Positions 15,201 through 43,650 of a DNA stretch of 64,000 bases are shown here, piece by piece. The stretch covers positions 592,945 through 656,944 of the forward strand of contig NZ_KB903430.1 in NCBI RefSeq assembly GCF_000379765.1. Reading direction: 5' to 3'. The DNA comes from Flexithrix dorotheae DSM 6795. GTDB lineage: Bacteria; Bacteroidota; Bacteroidia; Cytophagales; Flammeovirgaceae. The number at the start of each line of letters is the position of its first letter. Positions within the stretch are counted from its first letter, which is position 1. A model generated the notes under the pieces. That model searched no databases. It saw nothing but the letters and a program-made list of their open reading frames with translations, and was not told the origin of the DNA. The position numbers were made by a program, and so were the translations under genes.

Positions 15201-15305
15201 GGTTGACAGTTGCAAACTTTAGCCTGCGGCCGAGAAAAAATAATGGTTTAAGTATAAGCGAAGCAACTACTTAAACCTATAAATAAAAGTAAGTTTGTAA
15301 CTTAC
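15201..15305. repeat. REP-like cluster 1 (degenerate A, B, C)
   Basis: Three short palindromes in the order A-B-C. A (15201-15224) has only the right arm AACTTTAGCC intact. B (15245-15277) has arms GGTTTAAGTA and TACTTAAACC around a loop with AAGCGAAGC. C (15289-15305) is GTAAGTTTGTAACTTAC. The cluster ends 14 bp before the start of the membrane-protein gene at 15320. The same order recurs at 15784, 16515/17273 and 22303. Confidence 0.85.
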
Positions 15306-15319
15306 GAAAAAACCAGTAA

Positions 15320-15775
15320 ATGAAAATAAAAGAGAAAGCATTAGAAATAACCCAATTAGAAAATAAGATTATAATCAATGACAGAATGGAGTTTCAATGG
15401 AAAGAAATTCTGATTTTTGCCATTCCCCTACTCGCCATTACCCCATTTTTAACAGGCTTAATCATCAGTTTTGTCATATCTGCCCTTGGAATTTTAGCCT
15501 ATATTCTATTTCGGTTTTCCGCATGGGTATTTTATCAAAGAATTATTATCGACCTGGAACAGACAAAACTCACCGTGGAAAGGAAACTGATAAACAAAGT
15601 CATCTCTAAGAAATTAATCACTAAAAAATACAAATCCGAAAACTTCCACTTCAAAGCCCTTACCCGAAGTGGCATGACGAAATATTTATTTTCCTACAAG
15701 GAATTCAAAAGCTATGATCTTATGATTATCCAAAATGAAGCTGATGTGAAAAAAATTAAAGAGGCTTTAATGTAA
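15320..15775 (+). CDS. Hypothetical membrane protein inside REP-like island
   Basis: 151 aa. One long or two short hydrophobic segments occupy about residues 27-72 (EILIFAIPLLAITPFL and ISFVISALGILAYIL). The C-terminal half is basic and soluble, with beta-like strands (LEQTKLTVERKLINKVI). I do not recognise a family; the shape resembles small PH-like membrane proteins but no motif confirms that. It lies between REP-like clusters 1 and 2: its ATG is 14 bp after palindrome C1 and its TAA is 8 bp before palindrome D1, so its whole transcript would be bracketed by hairpins. Codon use looks native. Confidence 0.65.
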   Translation: MKIKEKALEITQLENKIIINDRMEFQWKEILIFAIPLLAITPFLTGLIISFVISALGILAYILFRFSAWVFYQRIIIDLEQTKLTVERKLINKVISKKLITKKYKSENFHFKALTRSGMTKYLFSYKEFKSYDLMIIQNEADVKKIKEALM

Positions 15776-15783
15776 TGGTTTCT

Positions 15784-15913
15784 GGCAGTTTCAAACTGCC
15801 TTTTATTGTAAGGCTAAAGTTGCAAACTTTAGCCAGAGGGAAAAAACTGGTTTAAGTATAAGCGGAGCGGGCGGCTACTTAAACCTACTAATAAAAGTAA
15901 GTTTGTAACTTAC
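15784..15913. repeat. REP-like cluster 2 (D, A, B, C) 5' of the RAYT gene
   Basis: The only complete cluster. D (15784-15800) is GGCAGTTTCAAACTGCC. A (15812-15834) has arms GGCTAAAGTT and AACTTTAGCC around GCA. B (15849-15885) has arms GGTTTAAGTA and TACTTAAACC with a GC-richer loop containing AAGCGGAGC. C (15897-15913) is identical to C1. A, C and D all share the core AGTT-N3-AACT. The segment 15773-15834 is repeated almost exactly at 16504-16565, so the RAYT gene is flanked by direct repeats of about 62 bp. Confidence 0.9.
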
Positions 15914-15957
15914 GTTCCAGGCATAAAATTTTGACCTAAGAATACAGTTTTCTTAGT

Positions 15958-16506
15958 ATGCCTTCAAAATACATTATAAACAATCCCCAATCGCTCCACT
16001 TCATTACATTTTCTACGGTGCAATGGGTAGATGCTTTATCCAGACCGAGTTATAAAGATATCATTATTGAAAGTCTTCGGTACTGTCAAAAAAATAAGGG
16101 ATTAATGCTTTACGCCTATGTAATCATGAACAATCATGTCCACCTGATTGCTTCCGCAAAGGGAAATTATAACCTTTCAAATATTCTTCGTGATTTAAAG
16201 AAACATACCAGCAAGAAACTATTTGAGGCAATTCAAAATAATATTCAGGAAAGCAGAAAATCATGGATGATGTGGATTTTTAAAAGTGCAGGTAAAGCCA
16301 ACTCAAACAATAAGTATCATCAACTTTGGCAACATGATAACCACCCTATCGAACTTAGTTCTAATCATTTGATACAGCAAAAATTAGATTATATCCATCG
16401 AAATCCGGTAAAGGCAGGAATTGTTTACGAACCCCATCATTATATTTATAGTAGTGCTTTTGATTATGCCGGAGGTACTGGTATTTTGGAAATTGACTTT
16501 CTTTAA
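15958..16506 (+). CDS. REP-associated tyrosine transposase (RAYT, Y1_Tnp)
   Basis: 182 aa. Family marks are the HxH metal motif MNNHVHLI (His60, His62) and the catalytic Tyr145 in QQKLDYIHRNPVKAG, followed by the usual Y/SS ending (YIYSSAFDYAGG). RAYTs are single-copy domesticated relatives of the IS200/IS605 transposases that nick single-stranded REP hairpins and are held to spread REP sequences. The gene is framed by palindromes: cluster 2 ends 45 bp upstream, and D2 begins 8 bp after the stop. All active-site residues are intact, so the protein is probably functional. No terminal-inverted-repeat element of its own is visible. Confidence 0.93.
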   Translation: MPSKYIINNPQSLHFITFSTVQWVDALSRPSYKDIIIESLRYCQKNKGLMLYAYVIMNNHVHLIASAKGNYNLSNILRDLKKHTSKKLFEAIQNNIQESRKSWMMWIFKSAGKANSNNKYHQLWQHDNHPIELSSNHLIQQKLDYIHRNPVKAGIVYEPHHYIYSSAFDYAGGTGILEIDFL

Positions 16507-16514
16507 TGGTTTTC

Positions 16515-16565
16515 GGCAGTTACAAACTGCCTTTTATTATAAGGCTAAAGTTGCAAACTTTAGCC
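16515..16565. repeat. REP-like cluster 3, left part (D, A)
   Basis: D2 (16515-16531) is GGCAGTTACAAACTGCC; it differs from D1 in the central bases only. A3 (16543-16565) is identical to A2. The pair with its flanks (16504-16565) nearly duplicates 15773-15834. The B element expected next is absent; instead a 0.7-kb segment with the gene at 16580-17197 follows. Confidence 0.88.
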
Positions 16566-16579
16566 AATGAGGATGTACT

Positions 16580-17197
16580 TTACTTTTTGCGATCAATTCG
16601 AAGTTTTAATAATTCTAATTCTTTAGATTGTAAATCCACCATCCTTTTTATATGTCGTTCAGCAATTGTAATTTCTGGTATTATATCAAATTTAAAATCC
16701 TCATCTTCTAAACAAAGATAGATTTGTCTGATAATTTCTTTTGCAGTACTCAATACTCTACCAACTTCGTCTAAAGTTAAATTATTTTCAGAAAAAAAAT
16801 CTGAATTAATATTATCTTGATGAGCATAAAGTTTATCTCTTAAGTTTTTTAATGAACTAATCGATCTTGAATTTATAGCATTTAGCATGTTTTTCAATTC
16901 AAGTATTTTCTCTTTTGAAATTTTATTATTTATTTCATTTTTATTATTCTCCAACAAGTTTATCAATTTAAACAAATTATATTTTTGGCTTTGATTATTT
17001 ATAACAAGTTTATTTAACTCAATAACCAGCATATAAAAATAAGAATACTTTGAAAAACGTAGGAAATCAGAATTAAGGATTATTCCGGCATGGTCATCAT
17101 TTTTGGGTTCATGTAAATACCTAGTAATAAAATAAGCTCTATTAGCTATTCCTAAAATTTTTACTATTCCTTTCAGTTTGCTCTTAATTTCATTCAT
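16580..17197 (-). CDS. HEPN-like (AbiU2-type?) hypothetical protein
   Basis: 205 aa, predicted almost entirely alpha-helical and very AT-rich in its DNA. The notable motif is LRDKLYAHQDN: Arg120 and His126 form an R-x5-H pair inside a helix, the arrangement of HEPN-domain RNases. The surrounding order (long helix, linker, NLRDKLYAH, then a further helix with a basic C-terminus) resembles AbiU2-type HEPN proteins linked to phage defence or toxin systems. This is inference from one motif. No antitoxin-like partner is adjacent. The gene sits between palindromes A3 and C3, where element B should be, suggesting insertion into a repeat cluster. It could also be a harmless hypothetical. Confidence 0.6.
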   Translation of the reverse strand: MNEIKSKLKGIVKILGIANRAYFITRYLHEPKNDDHAGIILNSDFLRFSKYSYFYMLVIELNKLVINNQSQKYNLFKLINLLENNKNEINNKISKEKILELKNMLNAINSRSISSLKNLRDKLYAHQDNINSDFFSENNLTLDEVGRVLSTAKEIIRQIYLCLEDEDFKFDIIPEITIAERHIKRMVDLQSKELELLKLRIDRKK

Positions 17198-17238
17198 TTC
17201 TTAAATTTGAAAATTTTTTAGCCATACCTTTTAGCAAA

Positions 17239-17289
17239 AACTTAAGATTTATTATTAATTTTTCCAATAAAAGTAAGTTTGTAACTTAC
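17239..17289. repeat. REP-like cluster 3, right part (B remnant, C) overlapping ltaE stop
   Basis: C3 (17273-17289) is GTAAGTTTGTAACTTAC, identical to C1 and C2. Before it, AACTTAAGATTT (about 17240-17250) resembles the right arm of B4 (ACTTAAGACTTTT). The TAA stop of the threonine aldolase gene (17286-17288) lies inside C3, so the repeat forms the very end of that gene. Confidence 0.75.
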
Positions 17290-22302: not shown

Positions 22303-22401
22303 GAAGGCATTTTTTTAATTCAAATAGCCTTCTGACTATGGTTTAAGTATATAGCGAAGCAATTACTTAAGACTTTTCATAAAAGAAAGTTTGTAACTTT
22401 C
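22303..22401. repeat. REP-like cluster 4 (A-like, B, C) 3' of the AAA ATPase gene
   Basis: B4 (22340-22373) has arms GGTTTAAGTA and TACTTAAGAC around a loop with AGCGAAGC. C4 (22385-22401) is GAAAGTTTGTAACTTTC, where both arms differ from C1-C3 in a compensatory way. A hairpin GAAGGC..GCCTTC (22303-22332) takes the place of A. The cluster ends 16 bp from the stop codon of the leftward ATPase gene. Confidence 0.82.
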
Positions 22402-43556: not shown

Positions 43557-43609
43557 CGGGTCTGTCCTTAGTGCTTGTTTATATTTTAGCCATGAAATAC
43601 TCTTCTGGC

Positions 43610-43650
43610 TTAAGTTCCAAACTTAAACTAGTGGAGTGGATAAGTTTAAG
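43610..43650. repeat. Diverged REP-like hairpins in the smc leader
   Basis: TTAAGTTCCAAACTTAA (43610-43626) has the same AGTT-N3-AACT core as the A, C and D palindromes. It overlaps CTTAAACT..AGTTTAAG (43622-43629 and 43643-43650), whose loop AGTGGAGTGG resembles the B loop (AAGCGGAGC). The match is partial, so this may be a decayed relative or an unrelated regulatory hairpin. Confidence 0.45.

Follow-up and report, generated by a model that had tools for sequence, protein, structure and literature searches.

The window analysed here, the whole 64-kb stretch of DNA under study (C1:592945-656944), comes from the Flexithrix dorotheae genome (9.54 Mb, 101 contigs), which belongs to the same family as Flammeovirga. 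It contains a gene for a REP-associated tyrosine transposase (RAYT) set among short palindromes of four types, A to D, with the features distributed as follows.

15201–15224, no strand assigned: degenerate D/A hybrid palindrome (D left arm, A right arm), from the sequence and a weak D-A profile match (C1:608139-608168)
15243–15305, + strand: B-C half 1, with an ATGG foot, bulged outer hairpin B, AATAAAA linker and inner hairpin C (model R1, 85.7 bits; DNA fold z −4.4)
15320–15775, + strand: 151-aa ORF between halves 1 and 2, with a predicted membrane-type N-terminus
15783–15836, + strand: D-A half 1, with inner hairpin D, TTTTATT, outer palindrome A and a CCAG end (model R2, 78.8 bits; fold z −5.7)
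15847–15913, + strand: B-C half 2, with a CTGG foot, left end of the RAYT element (model R1, 77.1 bits; fold z −3.5)
15958–16506, + strand: RAYT / TnpA-REP gene, HUH-Y1 nuclease (NHVH, WQ, Tyr145), 182 aa, ORF intact (NF047646, 100.5 bits; PF01797)
16514–16567, + strand: D-A half 2, which closes the RAYT element on the right (model R2, 78.4 bits; fold z −6.9)
16580–17197, − strand: HEPN AbiU2-like gene, 205 aa, with D-A half 2 on one side and the worn B-C on the other (PF18734, E 3.1e-12)
17244–17289, + strand: worn B-C, with C intact and B mostly gone, overlapping the ltaE stop codon (R1, 30 bits; R2, 35 bits)
22338–22401, + strand: B-C half standing alone, 16 nt from the stop codon of the ATPase gene (R1, 74.7 bits)
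43607–43633, no strand assigned: lone A-type palindrome with a CTGG foot, the tenth AGTT-N3-AACT occurrence

The preliminary description of this DNA had proposed a full RAYT gene from an HxH motif and a tyrosine, and the intact ORF at 15958–16506 bears this out: its 182-aa product carries the motifs NHVH, WQ and YIHRNP, and Tyr145 and both histidines of the first motif are the same in all aligned sequences. The protein scored 100.5 bits against the NCBIfam REP-associated tyrosine transposase model (cut-off 80) and 37.2 bits against PF01797 (cut-off 23), and among PDB structures it best matches 4er8, the TnpA-REP of E. coli (E 2.7e-8). The RAYT model has five matches in the genome, three of them above the cut-off. 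The two other strong RAYTs have their own, different palindromes, likewise with a CTGG foot. A second RAYT of the genome (L063; C1:126076-126906) is flanked not by inverted repeats but by ~145-nt direct repeats, 96% alike, that contain several palindromes.

These data bear on the reading that the locus is a normal insertion sequence of the IS200/IS605 kind, accompanied by deletion derivatives of itself (MITEs), and not a domesticated RAYT system. An HUH-Y1 transposase between subterminal hairpins, gene-less minimal copies and tandem elements are all features that the locus shares with such insertion sequences. However, the protein passes the RAYT model and stays below the IS200 cut-off (33.1 bits against 55), and its tyrosine motif, YIHRNP, is of the RAYT type and not the class 1 Y...Q. 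The gene is present in one copy alongside many gene-less repeats, not as a multi-copy transposase, and its ends are inverted repeats, whereas IS200/IS605 ends differ from inverted repeats. We therefore consider this reading very improbable.

Architecture of the palindrome elements

The AGTT-N3-AACT palindromes are real, with chance excluded by their counts: ten occur in the 64-kb window against 1.3 expected, and none of 100 shuffles reached ten. Nine of them fall at the sites that had been named preliminarily, and the tenth, at 43613, belongs to the lone A-type palindrome at 43607–43633 (CTGGCTTAAGTTCCAAACTTAAACTAG), both ends of which carry a foot. Palindrome B is of the same series as the others, with outer arms that match those of A and a longer, bulged top. 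When folded as single-stranded DNA, the element copies beat their shuffles (z −2.5 to −6.9); comparison of the region with known RNA families gave sub-threshold matches only.

The palindromes had been described as recurring in the order D-A-B-C at 15.2, 15.8, 16.5/17.3 and 22.3 kb. They do recur at these places, but the full order occurs once only (15784–15913): at 15.2 kb a single hybrid palindrome, with a D left arm and an A right arm, precedes B-C, while the 16.5-kb site has D-A alone, the 17.3-kb site has just C with a worn B, and the 22.3-kb site has B-C alone. Covariance models were built separately for B-C (R1) and D-A (R2). The B-C model matches D-A halves and the D-A model matches B-C halves, in each case on the opposite strand and over the full length, which indicates that B-C and D-A are inverted homologous halves and therefore that the element is B-C...D-A. 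Two such elements adjoin in the window, one enclosing the 151-aa ORF (B-C, ORF, D-A; 15243–15836) and the other the RAYT gene (B-C, RAYT, D-A; 15847–16567), and they are 11 nt apart. Given the inverted-half models and the 11-nt seam, the proposed four-part unit D-A-B-C was rejected as a real element; it is the junction of two abutting ones. The D/A hybrid at 15.2 kb is the remnant end of an older element.

In each half, an AATAAAA linker joins an inner hairpin (C or D) to an outer one (B or A), which stands on a CTGG foot. With the CTGG end first, the sequence of B-C is CTGG/ATGG-[TTTAAGTATAAGCGaAGCGACTACTTAAA]-CC-n-AATAAAA-[GTAAGTTTGTAACTTAC], and the reverse complement of D-A is CTGG-[CTAAAGTTTGCAACTTTAG]-CC-n-AATAAAA-[GGCAGTTTGTAACTGCC]. 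The foot is CTGG, ATGG, TTGG or CTAG in nearly all copies read, and the right-hand outer hairpin A is without the bulge kept by B. Compensatory changes support both the B-C and the D-A hairpins. Stem covariation is 0.145 for B-C and 0.249 for D-A, the latter with seven pairs changed on both sides, as opposed to 0.075 for shuffled counterparts in either case, and no shuffle was as high; these counts lean towards structure because the seeds were picked by similarity to the window. Slide controls for covariation drop sharply despite the window-similar seeds. The B-C...D-A element takes several forms, with the RAYT gene inside, with the 151-aa ORF inside, minimal with about 10–20 nt inside, or worn to one half.

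Distribution in the genome and among relatives

The repeats are found throughout the genome, between genes and close to gene 3′ ends, and, as the preliminary description had anticipated, are not confined to the window. Both models together gave at least 69 placements in the 9.5-Mb genome, or at least 66 half-sites once three overlapping opposite-strand duplicates had been removed, a lower bound that comes from the best 150 candidates scored per model search. Inverted pairs number at least eight with 7–22 nt between the halves and at least two with 86–92 nt; among the matches listed, two pairs enclose a gene, both of them within this window. By ORF calling, 46 of the 47 half-sites with flanks are intergenic, and none of the 25 scorable B loci lies between divergent genes, an arrangement that accounts for 28% of spacers (P 2.7e-4) and 40% of spacer length (P 2.7e-6); these placement figures are approximate because every ORF of 100 aa or more was taken as a gene. 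At the locus itself, the distances to stop codons had been given correctly: D starts 8 nt past the stops of both the 151-aa ORF and the RAYT gene, one C copy overlaps the stop codon of ltaE, and another comes to an end 16 nt from that of the ATPase gene.

A second type of element, a mosaic, consists of B-C with GGCGATACAATCGCC and usually CATCCTCGTTnnAAACGAGGATG. The palindrome GGCGATACAATCGCC follows 11 of 29 B-C halves at a constant distance, which is 9 nt for ten of them and 15 nt for one, and nine of these 11 also carry CATCCTCGTTnnAAACGAGGATG. Both are absent from the whole of contig C1, its B-C sites included. The GGCGATACAATCGCC/CATCCTCGTTnnAAACGAGGATG sequences lie just inside the B-C half at L107, L112, L116, L120, L123, L126, L127 and L130–L133.

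A RAYT homologue is present in 14 of 18 genomes of the family. The nearest RAYT (L208, 62% identity) has nearly the same ends, CTGGTTTAAGTTTG...AATAAAA. Flammeovirga RAYTs are arranged in the same way, as outer hairpin, inner hairpin, gene, inner hairpin and outer hairpin, with other sequences and a bulged outer hairpin containing TAAGC...GCG; the B-C model scores in Flammeovirga genomes too (1–8 matches each). More broadly, flanking inverted repeats exceed shuffles at 61 of 79 testable Bacteroidota RAYT loci, which suggests that inverted-repeat flanks are the ordinary anatomy of the subclass to which we assign this RAYT below. At least two separate stem-loops were found by automatic folding in 50 of 120 RAYT flanks, a figure that is too low, since long inverted repeats pair with one another as well. 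Automatic foot calling at 60 Bacteroidota loci was too noisy for a consensus. The MAG record PBYL01000164.1 (L218 / L039; G001), titled Thalassovita sp., falls in this Bacteroidota family and has a related RAYT, and its name looks wrong.

The preliminary description had proposed to test whether related genomes have matching RAYT and repeat types. The B-C model had zero matches in three genomes without a related RAYT (G014, G015 and G016), and a fourth (G003) gave one weak match at a contig edge. In G001, G002 and G013, a related RAYT is present and the B-C model is without a match. The genus-mate G012 is an exception: it has many copies (20 B-C and 18 D-A model matches, which overlap, as the models cross-match), and no RAYT between B-C and D-A is present in its assembly, which is 84% complete. 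The one strong RAYT there (53% identical) lies between other hairpins, again a pair with CTGG feet. Because the assembly is incomplete, the cognate RAYT may lie in its missing part, or it may have been lost while the repeats persisted. Repeats equally common in the absence of a related RAYT were thus not found outright, and G012 comes near to that situation.

Several half-sites occupy the same places in both species and are ~90% alike within a scrambled spacer. These shared-position half-sites look older than any recent transposition, and some half-sites may be under selection or homogenised. A degenerate counterpart of the worn B-C stands at the ltaE 3′ end in G012, where the available sequence ends 254 nt past ltaE. 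At some other places the repeat is present in one species only; the solitary B-C near the ATPase stop (22.3 kb), for example, is absent from the orthologous place in G012, which has a different hairpin there. Since shared and one-species sites coexist, the repeats appear to be both old and still changing in presence. Four places inspected in G012 gave no clean empty site: B-C presence differs at some of them, and the spacers have diverged too far for a junction to be placed.

Terminator-like hairpins and the 151-aa ORF

One alternative is that the hairpins are mainly transcription terminators, or mRNA 3′-end structures under selection, with their closeness to a RAYT secondary; the inner hairpin with TTTTATT would then end transcripts leaving the element. 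Hairpin D matches the terminator pattern in both D-A halves (15784–15800 and 16515–16531), and four matches to the pattern occur in the region against 1.1 expected. The avoidance of divergent spacers, the likeness of orthologous halves amid scrambled spacer and the replacement of B-C by another hairpin at the ATPase 3′ end in G012 all fit this alternative as well. Yet it does not account for two halves that mirror each other, for the feet of CTGG, for a bulge in the outer hairpin or for the phylum-wide RAYT layout, and the inner side of solitary B halves faces a gene 3′ end in fewer than half of cases. As the main account of the hairpins it is quite unlikely, and terminator function can hold as a secondary role. 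An inner hairpin facing a gene end was also considered as a general rule for B halves and was rejected on the same count.

The 151-aa ORF suggests another possibility, that B-C...D-A units carry passengers, with this ORF, and perhaps the AbiU2-like gene, captured between halves and moved by the RAYT in trans. The ORF is placed between B-C and D-A exactly as the RAYT gene is, 8 nt from D, in a unit that abuts the RAYT unit at 11 nt. It has no homologue in G012 and matches no Pfam family; homologues 32–33% identical occur in 2 of 295 genomes of the class, and weak similarities were found in two genomes of the family (E about 0.004). Neither this ORF nor the AbiU2-like gene matched a defence family in PADLOC. 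The capture of passengers is nevertheless unlikely: it has one clear case among the at least 66 half-sites listed, the two distant homologues are without such hairpins on inspection, and a resident gene with a separate insertion on each side would give the same picture. With a single case, two independent insertions explain the 151-aa ORF equally well. The broader proposal that REP-ended units are cassettes, by which the RAYT moves unrelated genes (the 151-aa membrane-type ORF and possibly the AbiU2-like HEPN gene) and builds tandem gene islands at gene 3′ ends, would follow the same lines and has little probability in our judgement.

Class assignment, proposed mechanism and significance

Quentin et al. 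(2018; PMC6006769) describe a Bacteroidetes subclass of TnpA-REP proteins, 2.6, with the motifs NH[LIV]H, WQ and YIH[QN]NP and a median length of 179 aa. According to that account, the genes have atypical flanking structures that lack GT[AG]G, were identified by inspecting the sequences by hand and have copies elsewhere in the genome, and the subclass corresponds to Bertels RAYT group 5. The RAYT described here is likewise from the Bacteroidota, has 182 aa, the motifs NHVH, WQ and YIH.NP, non-GT[AG]G flanks and copies of these elsewhere in the genome, and shares the conserved serines of the C-terminal extension (YSSA in this RAYT); its third motif, YIHRNP, is one residue off YIH[QN]NP. Because motifs, length and atypical flanks match, we assign it to subclass 2.6, and the finding would thus be a member of a recorded subclass (PMC6006769). 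The halves of two hairpins, the CTGG-type foot and the B-C...D-A unit do not appear to be spelled out in the main text of that paper, where the structures are termed "atypical".

The elements also resemble the canonical REPINs and BIMEs of E. coli, Pseudomonas and Stenotrophomonas, in which a RAYT lies between inverted imperfect palindromes, inverted doublets are the minimal elements, mosaics occur and the sites are intergenic. The REPIN basic unit of two inverted repeats is found here in at least eight tight pairs and in the RAYT and 151-aa ORF units, and the bulged TAAGCG-N-AGCG top of B resembles enterobacterial REPs such as GGGTAAGCGgAGCGCACCC (PMC2817692, Table 1). In contrast to canonical GT[AG]G REPs, these repeats have a CTGG foot, two hairpins per repeat and AT-rich stems. 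Canonical REPs are intergenic and usually exceed 100 copies; the half-sites here are intergenic and number in the tens and not the hundreds (at least 66).

Taken as a whole, the evidence makes it very probable that the locus is a REPtron, a subclass 2.6 TnpA-REP (RAYT) gene bracketed by its cognate repeats, with inverted halves forming B-C...D-A. The preliminary REP/RAYT reading is upheld in this respect by the RAYT model score (100.5 bits, cut-off 80), the inverted palindrome flanks and the intergenic recurrence near gene 3′ ends. Counting against the REPtron reading are G012, which has the repeats and a RAYT in other hairpins, the absence of a bulge from A, a copy number that is low for REPs, the old shared half-sites and the lack of a clean empty-site junction.

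E. coli TnpA-REP binds single-stranded REP DNA, for which both the foot GTAG and the bulge in the stem are needed, and its cleavage falls at a CT close to the hairpin (PMC8266576). The bulge of B is comparable to that of the E. coli REP, and the foot here is CT followed by GG. By analogy with E. coli and other TnpA-REPs, the HUH-Y1 nuclease would bind the folded outer hairpin in single-stranded DNA and would nick at or near the foot via Tyr145, after which the element could be copied or joined elsewhere in trans. Most of the surviving copies would be intergenic and close to gene 3′ ends, where transcription could be ended by the inner hairpin and the TTTTATT that follows it. That combination resembles a terminator, so that an insertion close to the 3′ end of a gene would do no harm or be of use.

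Among REP-linked transposases, the subclass 2.6 RAYTs are poorly described because searching for GT[AG]G misses their repeats. A clear anatomy for the subclass emerges from this locus and its relatives, in which each half has two hairpins and a CTGG-type foot and the gene lies between halves in inverted orientation; this opens the way to automatic searches across the Bacteroidota and to a direct biochemical test. Furthermore, the halves that both species retain at the same gene 3′ ends, and that are more alike than their flanks, offer a handle on whether immobile REPs are kept as terminators.
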